Shown here: piece by piece, positions 47,695-64,000 of the stretch
Layout: each line of letters opens with the position of its first letter
Position numbering within the stretch: the first letter of the stretch is position 1
Origin: Rhynochetos jubatus
Lineage: Eukaryota; Chordata; Aves; Eurypygiformes; Rhynochetidae
DNA: 64,000 bases
Direction: 5' to 3'
Assembly: GCA_027574665.1 (NCBI GenBank)
Contig: CM050666.1
Location: 5,580,001 to 5,644,000, forward strand
Notes under the pieces: generated by a model
What the model saw: only the letters and a program-made list of their open reading frames with translations
The model's database searches: none
Told to the model about the DNA's origin: nothing
Translations under genes and position numbers: made by a program

Positions 47695-48000
47695 CACCCC
47701 ACAGACCTCGCTCCCGCCGAGACCGGGGCTGCGCGCACGCCGCCGCGGCCTCCGGTTGCCATAGGAACGGACGCGGGCGCGAGGCATCCCGGTCTGAAAG
47801 AAAACGCAGGAATAAAACCCCATTAGAGCGCCAGGCCCTGGCCAATTAGAGCTCGCGGGGGCGCGGGCGGTGACCAATGGCTGGCGGCCGACGCTAGAGG
47901 GGCGGAGTCGAGCTGAGCGGAGGCGGCTGCGGCGCGCACGGACCGGAGCGCAGCGCCGCTTCGCTCCGCACAGGACCGGTCCCACAGCACCTGCCGAACG
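47695..48000 (+). promoter_or_regulatory. DYNLL1 copy 1 promoter and non-coding exon 1
   Basis: A GC-rich promoter with two CCAAT boxes (GGCCAATTAG near 47,840 and GACCAATGG near 47,873). The second sits in a 20-base string, GTGACCAATGGCTGGCGGCC, that is also found upstream of copy 2. An X-box-like GTTGCCATAGGAAC lies at 47,755-47,768. The untranslated first exon ends at 48,000 (CTGCCGAACG, donor GTGAGG at 48,001). Similarity to the copy 2 promoter starts at about 47,695, which marks the 5' edge of the duplicated unit. Confidence 0.8.
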
Positions 48001-48182
48001 GTGAGGGCAGCGACGGGGGTGTGAGGCGCTGGGTGAGGGTGGCGCCCGACGCGCACCGGGACCGGGAACAGGACAGGGGCCAGCGGCCAGCGCTAGTCCG
48101 GGCAGCAGCCGCCGTGCCTCAGCCAGCCGGTTGCCCGGGCACTCGCATGGCCCGGTGCGGCGCGTGTGCCAGCGGCTCCCCC

Positions 48183-48320
48183 GTGCCAGGGCCCTTCCCC
48201 AGCGGCCGCCTCCGCCTCTCCCGCATCCCTGCGAGCTGCAGGCGGGAGCCTTCCCCGTAGCCGCGCGGGGCTCCGAGCCCTGGGCGGGGGGCGCTGGGCT
48301 TCGTTCTCCTCCCTCGGCAG
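48183..48320 (+). repeat. Intron-1 segment nearly identical to copy 2
   Basis: These 138 bases match 59,377-59,514 with about three substitutions by eye, while the sequence just after differs clearly between the two copies. It is part of the mosaic pattern of the DYNLL1 duplicates. Confidence 0.85.
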
Positions 48321-48403
48321 CGGCCGCTCCGGGGGCTCCCGGCCTGCGCCGGGCTGCGCCGAGCCGGAGAGGGGCTGGGGAGTCCTGGCGGGGTGTGAAA
48401 CCG

Positions 48404-48586
48404 CTCGGGCGGTGCTTGTGTCGCTCCCGGCTGCGGAGCGGGTGCTTCGTGTGACCGGGCTGTTGAGGTCCGACACAGCCGGCACAAGTGCTGCACAGCC
48501 GGGGCTGCGGGCACAGCGCGGGCCCCCAAAACTCCCTGTGGAGCACATCCCGGTGTGAGTGCTGGGCGGGTGATCCGGGCAGGTAG
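48404..48586 (+). repeat. Intron-1 segment identical to copy 3
   Basis: These 183 bases match 62,424-62,630 with no substitution seen and a single 24-base insertion in copy 3 (62,489-62,512). Copy 2 lacks this segment. The identity contrasts with the heavily diverged neighbouring exon 2 of copy 3. Confidence 0.88.
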
Positions 48587-61269: not shown

Positions 61270-61739
61270 AACCACGGACTGTTACTGACACTTGCATCCG
61301 GTTACAGGACTGTGTGCTGACTCCTCTTGACTAGTTACTGCAGCCTTCCTAAGGACGCAGACCTTGATCTTCAAGGGCAATGGCAGGGATTATGTTATAG
61401 CAGATGTTACATTGTGGATATAAAAAGGAAAAATACCAAAAAAGTCTTCCTTGTATTTATTTTTTTTTTTCAGAAGGCTGCTTCTTTGCTAGTAGAGCTG
61501 TTGGAGCAGGTTTGCCTTTCAGAGTTTTATAGCCATCTGCAGTTACTGCTTGTGCTAAGTGCTGACAGGGTTTAGTTGTTTGAGTTCCAAACCTCTCCGG
61601 CTCCTCTGGTTTGTTTTGTGAACTTCTGCCCCCTCTTTGCTTGCGGGATGTGCTGCTCCCAAGCCTGAGCTGCCCCTTTTTCTGCGGATGCCTCTTGGAG
61701 AGCCGCTTTGGAGAATAAGGGACAAGGTTCCCTCCAGCC

Positions 61740-62160
61740 GCCAGGTCGTTATTTCTGGCGGCTCCGTGCCGGCGGGGGGGTGGGTGACTCGGTCCCGCGG
61801 CTCTGCGCGAGGGGGGCGGAGGGGGCGCCGGCGGCCGGGCCGGCGGTCGGGGCGGTGGCCGGGGGACTACAGCTCCCGGCGCGCTCCGCGGCGGGCGAGG
61901 ACTACGCGTCCCGTGGTGCCCGTCAGGGAACGGCTCCATCCGGGTCCCGGCCACTGCTGCGGGCGACTCGTCGCCATTACGGGGCAGAGGTCGCCCGCCA
62001 GCGCCGTCGTTGGTGCTGCAGCGCTGGGCCTGCACGACCTCCGCCGTGGATGGGGACCGCCCCTGCGGCCCCGGTGCGAAGGGCAGCAGCCGCCATCCTC
62101 CTCGGTGTGGCTGGCCGCGGGGGGCCGTGCGCCCGAAGGCGGTAAGAGCCGGGGGGGGGG
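61740..62160 (+). promoter_or_regulatory. CpG island upstream of DYNLL1 copy 3
   Basis: A dense CpG stretch that I cannot align by eye with the CCAAT-box promoters of copies 1 and 2. It contains a donor-like GGCGGTAAGAGCC at about 62,137-62,149. It may be a new promoter joined to copy 3, or one belonging to a divergent minus-strand transcript. Long open frames on both strands are attributed to the high GC content. Confidence 0.5.
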
Positions 62161-62199
62161 CCAGGCTCGCCCCCCTGCTGCTCTGAGGCCGGCGTGGCG

Positions 62200-64000
62200 C
62201 GCGCGGGCCCGCGGCGCCTGCCGAGGGGTGAGGGGCGCGTCGGGCGGCTTCCGAGCGGGGCCGGCCCGGGGGAGCGGGAGGGCTGAAGCCGGGCAGCGGG
62301 CGCCTCCCCCGCCAGGGAATGGTCGCCGGGGCCGGGCACTGACGTGCTTGTGCCCTCTCCCGGGGCTCCTTGGCTGTGCCGAGCCGGAGAGGGGCTGGGG
62401 GGTCCCGGCGGGGTGTGAAGCCCCTCGGGCGGTGCTTGTGTCGCTCCCGGCTGCGGAGCGGGTGCTTCGTGTGACCGGGCTGTTGAGGCGCCGAGCACAG
62501 GCTGTGCCAGTGTCCGACACAGCCGGCACAAGTGCTGCACAGCCGGGGCTGCGGGCACAGCGCGGGCCCCCAAAACTCCCTGTGGAGCACATCCCGGTGT
62601 GAGTGCTGGGCGGGTGATCCGGGCAGGTAGCTGCTCCTGCAACGCTGAGTTCTCCTTGTTTGATACAGACACCCGTGGGTCATCAGACGGCCGTGATAAG
62701 GGATACGGATGTGTCCGAGGAGGTGCTGCGGAGTGTGGCGTTTTGGCCATAGAGGAAAATAATGTTGAAAGAGAAATTGGAACCCTTGTAAAGTGGGTAA
62801 ATGTCTCACTGTAACATCCTTTTGTGAAACGCTATCCGCACCAGAAGTCAAGCAGAGTGGGTGTTGCTACCCTGTGTGGAAACGTGAGTTCTGTGGGCAC
62901 AAGATACGTTGATTGGACTTTTCCTGTGGGCTGGTTTCCCTGTGTTCCTATGCCTTACCTGTGCCTTTCCTAGTTTTTGTTTTGCAATACCTTCCATTTT
63001 TAATTGTTTTTTCACTGTCTCGTTGTCTAGCGGAATAGGAGAGCATCTGCTGGCCTCTTCCAGCGTGACTGATTAGCTGGTAGAAAATAACGGTCCTTTG
63101 AAGTCTGCTGTAACTTTCCTCACAGAGGAAATGCCTTTTTTTACCTAATCCTTGACCTGTGTTCAAATTAGTCTTAAGGTTCGGTTCATAGTTTTGTAAT
63201 AGTTGTGGAGGATTGGCTAGGTGGTTCAGACTTCGCAGGGAAAAGTTATTTTCTGCACATCTGTGTTCACATTCTCTTTTACGTACTAAACCATGCTAAA
63301 ATCGTGTGCCTTGGAGTGCTGTTTATCTGGTGTCCACAGAATACCTGGCTTTATATATGCATAAAGAAGAATGCATAAAACCTCTAGTTCTGATATGCTT
63401 GCTGCTTTGTCATCTCAGGAGAATAAAGAAATGTGAGGGTGCCAGTGGAGGTTAAATATTACACAAACCTGAATGGAAGACCCGTTTGAAAAGTCTTTCA
63501 GCTAAATGGTACAATTGCTTCTGTTGGAGAGGTGTTCCTTTCCTGTCACCCTAACACAGATATAAGCACTTCTATTTTTTCCACTTGTAAGAACGGCATT
63601 CCATGTTAGTGAAGAGCAGAGGGTTCGAGCAGATTTTTCTTCAGACTCCTAGTTGGAGCCTGAGAAATTGTGTTGAGGAGGTAATTTATCCAAGGTTGTA
63701 AAAACTGATGATGAATGCTTGTATGCTCTCATGGAAAGTTTCCTCATTTGGGAACTGTTGGATATGACAGTATATAATGACTGCCTGGAATGTTCTGCTT
63801 TTAGTAGAGTTGTATATCTTGGTTTTTGAACCGTGTGGTAGGCTTATGGCTGTGATGGGAGAAATGATTGCATGACCTGATACTTAGTAGCGTAGTTTGA
63901 GATCGTGGTATGACTTACGGAGCGGGGGGAATTGCAGTCCCTGGGCATATTTCTGCTCAGCTAAGAAGCTCTGTGGGCTTTTTTTGTGCATGTGTGTGTC
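62200..64000 (+). pseudogene. Degenerate third DYNLL1 copy (truncated by window end)
   Basis: The end of exon 1 (GCGGCGCCTGCCGAGGG, donor at 62,228) and intron 1 align with copies 1 and 2. The exon 2 relic is 62,675-62,796 after a preserved TTTGATACAG acceptor. The start ATG is GTG. The first part reads like AVIRDTDVSEEV (LC8: [12 protein letters not shown]). A 10-base deletion then shifts the frame, and the rest reads ECGVLAIEENNVEREIG (LC8: [17 protein letters not shown]) up to an intact donor at 62,797. The length is 122 versus 132 bases in the functional exons. Intron 2 aligns with both other copies up to the end of the window, where the TTCCTGCTCAGCT-like stretch of copy 1 (near 49,650) is reached. 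Exon 3 should therefore lie about 200-300 bases beyond the window. The many conservative replacements suggest a period of constraint before loss. Confidence 0.87.

Follow-up and report, generated by a model that had tools for sequence, protein, structure and literature searches.

Four tandem copies of DYNLL1, here called D1 to D4, lie beside COQ5 and RNF10 in the genome of Rhynochetos jubatus; two are intact, two are broken, and all four share near-identical, sharply bordered tracts within otherwise diverged sequence. We consider it likely that these copies are a long-standing LC8 tandem cluster of birds that has evolved in concert, and that the tracts arose by interlocus gene conversion. Since the near-identity of D1 and D2 is restricted to tracts inside old divergence, it does not appear to mark a simply young extra copy. 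The kind of event is an ordinary one, tandem duplication with conversion, and the locus is real and old. Two points make it of interest: a highly conserved hub gene has an additional intact copy, and conversion would extend to a captured neighbour promoter and to dead copies.

Four linked DYNLL1 copies, two of them intact

The window is the 64,000-nucleotide stretch C21:5580001-5644000 of an assembly of 1.33 Gb in 148 contigs; the 29 kb 3' of it were joined to it, and the resulting 93-kb stretch was analysed (positions without a contig prefix are those of the window). Globin genes elsewhere in the assembly agree with an avian source: three alpha-like loci were found on C19 and four beta-like loci on C2, and the last 47 residues of an alpha-A chain are 85% identical to those of chicken. 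After six engineered chains, fused or multi-domain, the best-scoring entries for this chain carry the name alpha-A. A sequence-only reading of the window had described a three-member DYNLL1 family, duplicated at the DNA level, with COQ5 between two intact genes and a broken third copy after them. The duplication, the two intact genes and the placement of COQ5 all held, with introns, promoters and UTRs present. The member count was wrong, as a fourth, broken copy (D4) was identified by genome protein search and alignments beyond the window at C21:5645.2-5647.0 kb, and a fragment of RNF10 before D3 had been missed. Homology among D1-D4 runs from promoter to 3'UTR in alignments, and the linked copies share introns and flanks, indicating duplication at the DNA level. 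A BLAST alignment of D1 with D2 spans 481 bp at 98.5% (E printed as 0.0) and is no chance resemblance. Further LC8-type matches in the assembly, among at least ten in a protein search whose match counts are lower bounds, were only DYNLL2 on C23, in two exons, and one match on C5 that is 36% identical. The exon layout of DYNLL2 is the same as that of D1 and D2, whereas the four linked copies here compare with one in the LC8 system of DYNLL1 and DYNLL2.

D1 lies on the plus strand and extends from its promoter to past an AATAAA poly(A) signal (47683..50280; alignments, open reading frame, and promoter and poly(A) motifs). Motif searches placed its CCAAT boxes at 47,842 and 47,874 and the AATAAA at 50,242. 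A non-coding exon 1, with limits drawn from a GT donor and homology, ends at ~48,000 and is followed by coding exon 2 (48631..48762, ATG at 48,631) and by coding exon 3 with the stop codon (49872..50009), both placed by translation and genome protein search. D2, also on the plus strand, extends from its promoter to the end of the alignable 3'UTR (58884..61528; alignments, open reading frame and motifs), with CCAAT boxes at 59,043 and 59,075 from the motif search and, by translation, coding exon 2 at 59682..59813 (ATG at 59,682; S21A) and coding exon 3 with the stop codon at 61132..61269. Both genes translate to 89-amino-acid LC8 frames without internal stops, and both match Pfam Dynein_light (E 5.5e-44 for D1 and 1e-44 for D2). 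These results bear out the intact genes proposed at 48,631-50,009 and, with a CCAAT promoter, introns and UTRs of its own, at 59,682-61,269, though the 3'UTR of the latter has no AATAAA.

Only 4 of the 270 coding nt distinguish D1 from D2 (48,687, 48,690 and 48,691 in exon 2; 49,922 in exon 3), with S21A in D2 as the sole residue change; CAAGACTCG identifies D1 and CAGGATGCG is specific to D2. Compared with a solved human-type LC8 chain, D1 is identical at 88/89 residues and D2 at 87/89, both departing at S2 and D2 additionally at A21. Ala21 is also the state in this genome's DYNLL2, but D2 otherwise carries DYNLL1 residues. Codon 21 of D4 is GTT, one step from GCT, suggesting from very few sites that Ala21 may be a long-standing state on the D2/D4 side.

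By contrast with these two genes, D3 and D4 have no intact LC8 frame, owing to GTG starts, stops and deletions. D3 is on the plus strand at 62204..64000 and continues past the window to ~64,671 (alignments and genome protein search). Its start codon is GTG instead of ATG, exon 2 lacks 10 nt, the exon-3 acceptor has changed from AG to TG, and the exon-3 match contains a TGA, in keeping with the broken third copy that had been reported after D2. D4 likewise starts with GTG; its codon 18 is TAG, 4 nt are missing at its exon-2 donor, and its intron 2 is short. The match between D1 and the exon-1 edge of D3 is weak (1/300 shuffles as high), and the stretch just 3' of this edge matches D2 and D4 firmly (0/300 shuffles each).

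Because the exons of D2 look recently refreshed, the intactness of D2 is weak evidence of function; part of it appears to be borrowed from conversion, and alone it is no proof of long purifying selection. It is possible, if somewhat unlikely, that D2 is silent or dying, with a frame merely restored by conversion from D1, such that D1 is the sole working DYNLL1. Consistent with such decay, the tracts described below span exon 2 of D2 and probably exon 3, D2 is without the 3' part of intron 1 relative to D1, D3 and D4, and its 3' region has no AATAAA before 63,422; a search for 12 poly(A) hexamers 3' of D2 to 62,200 gave only TATAAA at 61,419. Nevertheless, D2 retains the GT donor after exon 1, both acceptors, the frame and two CCAAT boxes, and its one differing residue equals the DYNLL2 state, unlike a random break. 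We predict with moderate confidence that D2 is expressed. An unlikely extension of this prediction is that two LC8 genes are maintained in birds, differing in promoter sequence and in one residue, the exons being refreshed by mutual conversion while selection protects Ala21 of D2 from being overwritten; concerted evolution would then be hiding D2 as an LC8 paralog in its own right, with an expression domain of its own.

COQ5 and a duplicated RNF10 5' end

COQ5 is flanked by D1 and D2, as the sequence-only reading had it, and lies on the minus strand at 51546..58004 (outer limits approximate), tail to tail with D1 and head to head with D2. Its exon at 57,322-57,474 matches Pfam Ubie_methyltran (E 1.1e-15), and that at 56,682-56,921, on the same strand, scores 20.0 bits against a Pfam cut-off of 20.1; the remaining exons were placed by eye only, from translations. 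Comparison of COQ5 DNA (51,400-58,050) with the rest of the 93 kb gave one weak match (64%, 153 columns, E 2.4e-4). Since this sole match is GC-rich and is located in the RNF10 CpG island, the earlier statement that no piece of COQ5 is repeated between D2 and D3 stands. A genome-wide search with two COQ5 exons found one locus only, and this result, together with the weakness of the match, speaks against a COQ5 duplication between D2 and D3.

Between D2 and D3 lies instead a duplicated 5' end of a gene that we take to be RNF10, on the basis of human residues and gene order rather than a family search. The fragment is on the plus strand at 61562..62167 (alignment, shuffles and genome search). 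Its promoter part, 61,562-61,988, differs from C21:5647491-5647951 by 9 mismatches in 427 columns and one 34-nt gap. Its second part, 61,991-62,167, is an exon-1 remnant with the start of the intron, and scores 118, whereas none of 500 dinucleotide shuffles scored above 45. The remnant ends ~37 nt 5' of the D3 exon-1 edge; with the RNF10 fragment joined to this edge, D3 has no promoter of its own. Searched against the whole assembly, the fragment matched, besides itself, RNF10 in two pieces as well as five short GC-rich pieces on C26 and one on C3, with no second full copy found elsewhere. Neighbouring GC-rich pieces at G000:C26:6736978-6737208 match part of the fragment at 82-89%, and are probably a low-complexity tandem array.

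Near-identical tracts within diverged copies

We identified seven tracts, distributed over all six copy pairs, that are 93.1-99.5% identical; 0/2,000 column permutations gave values as high. Outside the tracts, identity is 56.5-63.8%, and the tract borders are abrupt. Because the permutation treats columns as exchangeable and alignment is poor in the middle of intron 2, only the presence of tracts and their rough limits should be trusted. All tracts lie on the plus strand. One tract pairs 48172..49069 of D1 with 59,366-60,120 of D2 (95.2% over 727 columns). The D1 sides of the D1/D4 and D1/D3 tracts are 48,172-48,587 (94.5%) and 48,358-48,587 (98.3%), respectively. In D2, tracts overall cover 59292..60120 in the permutation analysis, including the D2 sides of the D2/D4 tract (59,292-59,640; 97.7%) and the D2/D3 tract (59,544-59,640; 93.1% over 87 columns). 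Intron 1 of the two broken copies, D3 and D4, forms a tract at 62352..62641 (97.6% over 290 columns). A second D1/D2 tract, at exon 3 (49848..50036 in D1, 61108..61296 in D2), has 1 mismatch in 189 columns and lies outside CpG islands.

Sites differing in unconverted promoter, intron-2 and 3'UTR segments amount to 22-49% (~28-49% for promoter and intron), with K80 of 0.27-0.86. The DYNLL1 promoters, although also in CpG islands, are diverged (K80 0.43-0.62 among D1, D2 and D4). The 5' part of intron 2 is 99.3% alike between D1 and D2 (K80 0.007), yet 62-63% alike when these are compared with D3 and D4. The avian rate is ~0.002 substitutions per site per My. At this rate the unconverted divergence would correspond very roughly to ~70 to 210 My, an estimate made less certain by alignment error, and the D1/D2 5' intron 2 to about 2 My; by this measure the duplications look old.

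CpG islands cover 30% of 47,680-69,000. Among 12 tract ends tested, a set with one end each for the D1/D4 and D2/D4 tracts and none for D2/D3, eight were ~90% or more within CpG islands, with GC of 0.68-0.77, two were at 51-58%, and the two at exon 3 were at 0%. Exon 3 of D1 and D2 has 1 synonymous difference against 5.9-8.4 expected (P 0.002-0.018); it is the least secure tract, and synonymous constraint could explain its likeness. Quartet sites supporting 12|34, 13|24 and 14|23 numbered 2/3/0 in promoter plus exon 1, 4/6/1 in intron 1 and 19/8/3 in the 3'UTR. In exon 2, intron 2 and exon 3 (16, 24 and 3 sites) all were 12|34, because D1-D2 identity there forces that pattern.

Purifying selection on an intron-1 regulatory element and on constrained LC8 codons could, in principle, keep such patches alike in place of conversion. 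LC8 is strongly conserved, to the extent that exon 3 of D1 and exon 3 of this genome's DYNLL2 specify the same residues, and the exon-3 synonymous test is modest. However, exon-3 DNA differs between D1 and DYNLL2 at 21/138 nt and between D1 and D2 at only 1, the likeness in 5' intron 2 is specific to D1 and D2, intron 1 is alike in D3 and D4 when their exons are not, and the RNF10 promoter fragment shows the same patchy near-identity. We therefore regard selection as a highly improbable source of the patches. Conversion is favoured because the tracts ignore function, occurring in intron 1 of D3/D4, in intron 2 of D1/D2 and in the captured RNF10 promoter.

We give very little credence to errors of assembly or polishing, whereby paralog reads were collapsed or copied in GC-rich DNA and the tracts, or one of the copies, are unreal. 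Most tracts are indeed very GC-rich at their CpG-island ends and such DNA is hard to sequence, but the joined 93 kb contain no N and the contig that carries them is 18.04 Mb, the copies differ by 36-44% outside the tracts, and the tracts themselves are inexact, with the mismatches and gap noted for RNF10 and with D1/D2 differences that are scattered. The same 36-44% difference excludes a haplotype duplication. Processed retrocopies are excluded, since D2 and D3 keep both introns and D4 a short intron 2.

A probable history of tandem amplification and gene conversion

From these patterns we infer conversion as the agent, together with an order of events, their ages, and the likely expression and buffering of the second gene. 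The whole DYNLL1 gene would have undergone an old tandem amplification in the bird lineage, with one copy ending up between COQ5 and RNF10. The RNF10 5' end would have been placed by a later tandem duplication, broken near DYNLL1 exon 1 and in RNF10 intron 1, before D3, which, promoterless, presumably decayed. D4 would have decayed too, despite retaining a promoter-like region, and the frames of D1 and D2 would have stayed open. Recent interlocus conversion would then have overwritten patches among all four copies, mostly CpG-island intron-1 blocks, and likewise RNF10 and its fragment; between D1 and D2 it would span exon 2, the start of intron 2 and probably exon 3. In the most probable outcome, which we hold with the same moderate confidence as the prediction for D2, both genes make LC8 and ASCIZ/ATMIN feedback buffers the added dose.

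Some observations complicate this model. D4 has a promoter-like region of its own, yet sits 3' of the promoterless D3, an arrangement that a single duplication of the DYNLL1-to-RNF10 interval does not yield; at least one further duplication would thus be needed. With the quartet sites also mixed outside the D1/D2 tracts, a one-step duplication history was not reached. In favour of conversion, zebra finch is reported to show GC-biased conversion and an excess at CpG islands of recombination events of both kinds, conversion among them (PMC12047795). The mean conversion tract reported there is ~32 bp (PMC12047795). The tracts of D1-D4 are far longer than this mean, so repeated or long conversion events must be assumed.

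Relation to other gene families and to other birds

The alpha-globin pairs are a tandem family in concerted evolution by interlocus conversion. Like such families, the DYNLL1 copies of this one species show a sharp-bordered patchwork of identity in diverged flanks, introns and broken copies included. They differ in that the tracts link copies across the unrelated COQ5 and include part of a captured RNF10 promoter.

We take the chicken symbols DYL1 and DYL2 to denote dynein light chains. A gene list for chicken chr15:9-10 Mb (NCBI annotation, Gallus gallus 5) includes DYL1, DYNLL1 and DYL2 with COQ5, RNF10, TRIAP1, GATC and COX6A1 (PMC7402339). This 1-Mb interval thus resembles the present locus in holding more than one LC8-like symbol among the same neighbours, in a comparison made by gene symbol (PMC7402339). 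Because DYNLL1, DYL1 and DYL2 are all already in this list, the cluster is likely to be avian-wide, and extra LC8 genes at COQ5/RNF10 are probably common to birds (PMC7402339). The chicken semen proteome, as reported, names DYNLL1 and DYNLL2, which does not help to separate the copies (PMC12507248). Among the literature matches listed, judged by title or start of abstract, none was a paper on an avian LC8/COQ5/RNF10 cluster.

Few hub proteins are as conserved as LC8, whose dose is sensed by a feedback transcription factor, ASCIZ/ATMIN. With a second intact LC8 gene next to two dead copies, this bird offers a natural test of how LC8 dosage is buffered. The ~22-kb locus also illustrates how introns near promoters, those of dead paralogs included, could be homogenised by recombination concentrated at CpG islands, with the captured RNF10 promoter as an internal comparison. 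In such a cluster an open frame is weak evidence of function, and short RNA or DNA reads inside the tracts cannot be assigned to a single copy.

Neighbouring genes

The genes 5' of D1, at window 36,400-41,660, are presumably COX6A1 (+), TRIAP1 (-) and GATC (+), in an order read from translations. In human, SRSF9 sits between GATC and DYNLL1, and the corresponding interval here is window 41,700-47,600. A genome-wide search with part of human SRSF9 gave nine matches, none of them on C21, and SRSF9 may have been lost in this bird. The best three matches are on C23, ~21 kb from DYNLL2, and are probably SRSF1. The set of COX6A1, TRIAP1 and GATC is also in the chicken chr15 list (PMC7402339).

The RNF10 exon-1 remnant keeps a GTAAG splice donor (GGTAAGAGCCGGG) at 62,141-62,167. 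As this donor is retained and the RNF10 promoter part 5' of it has hardly changed, a fusion RNA of RNF10 with D3 is possible.
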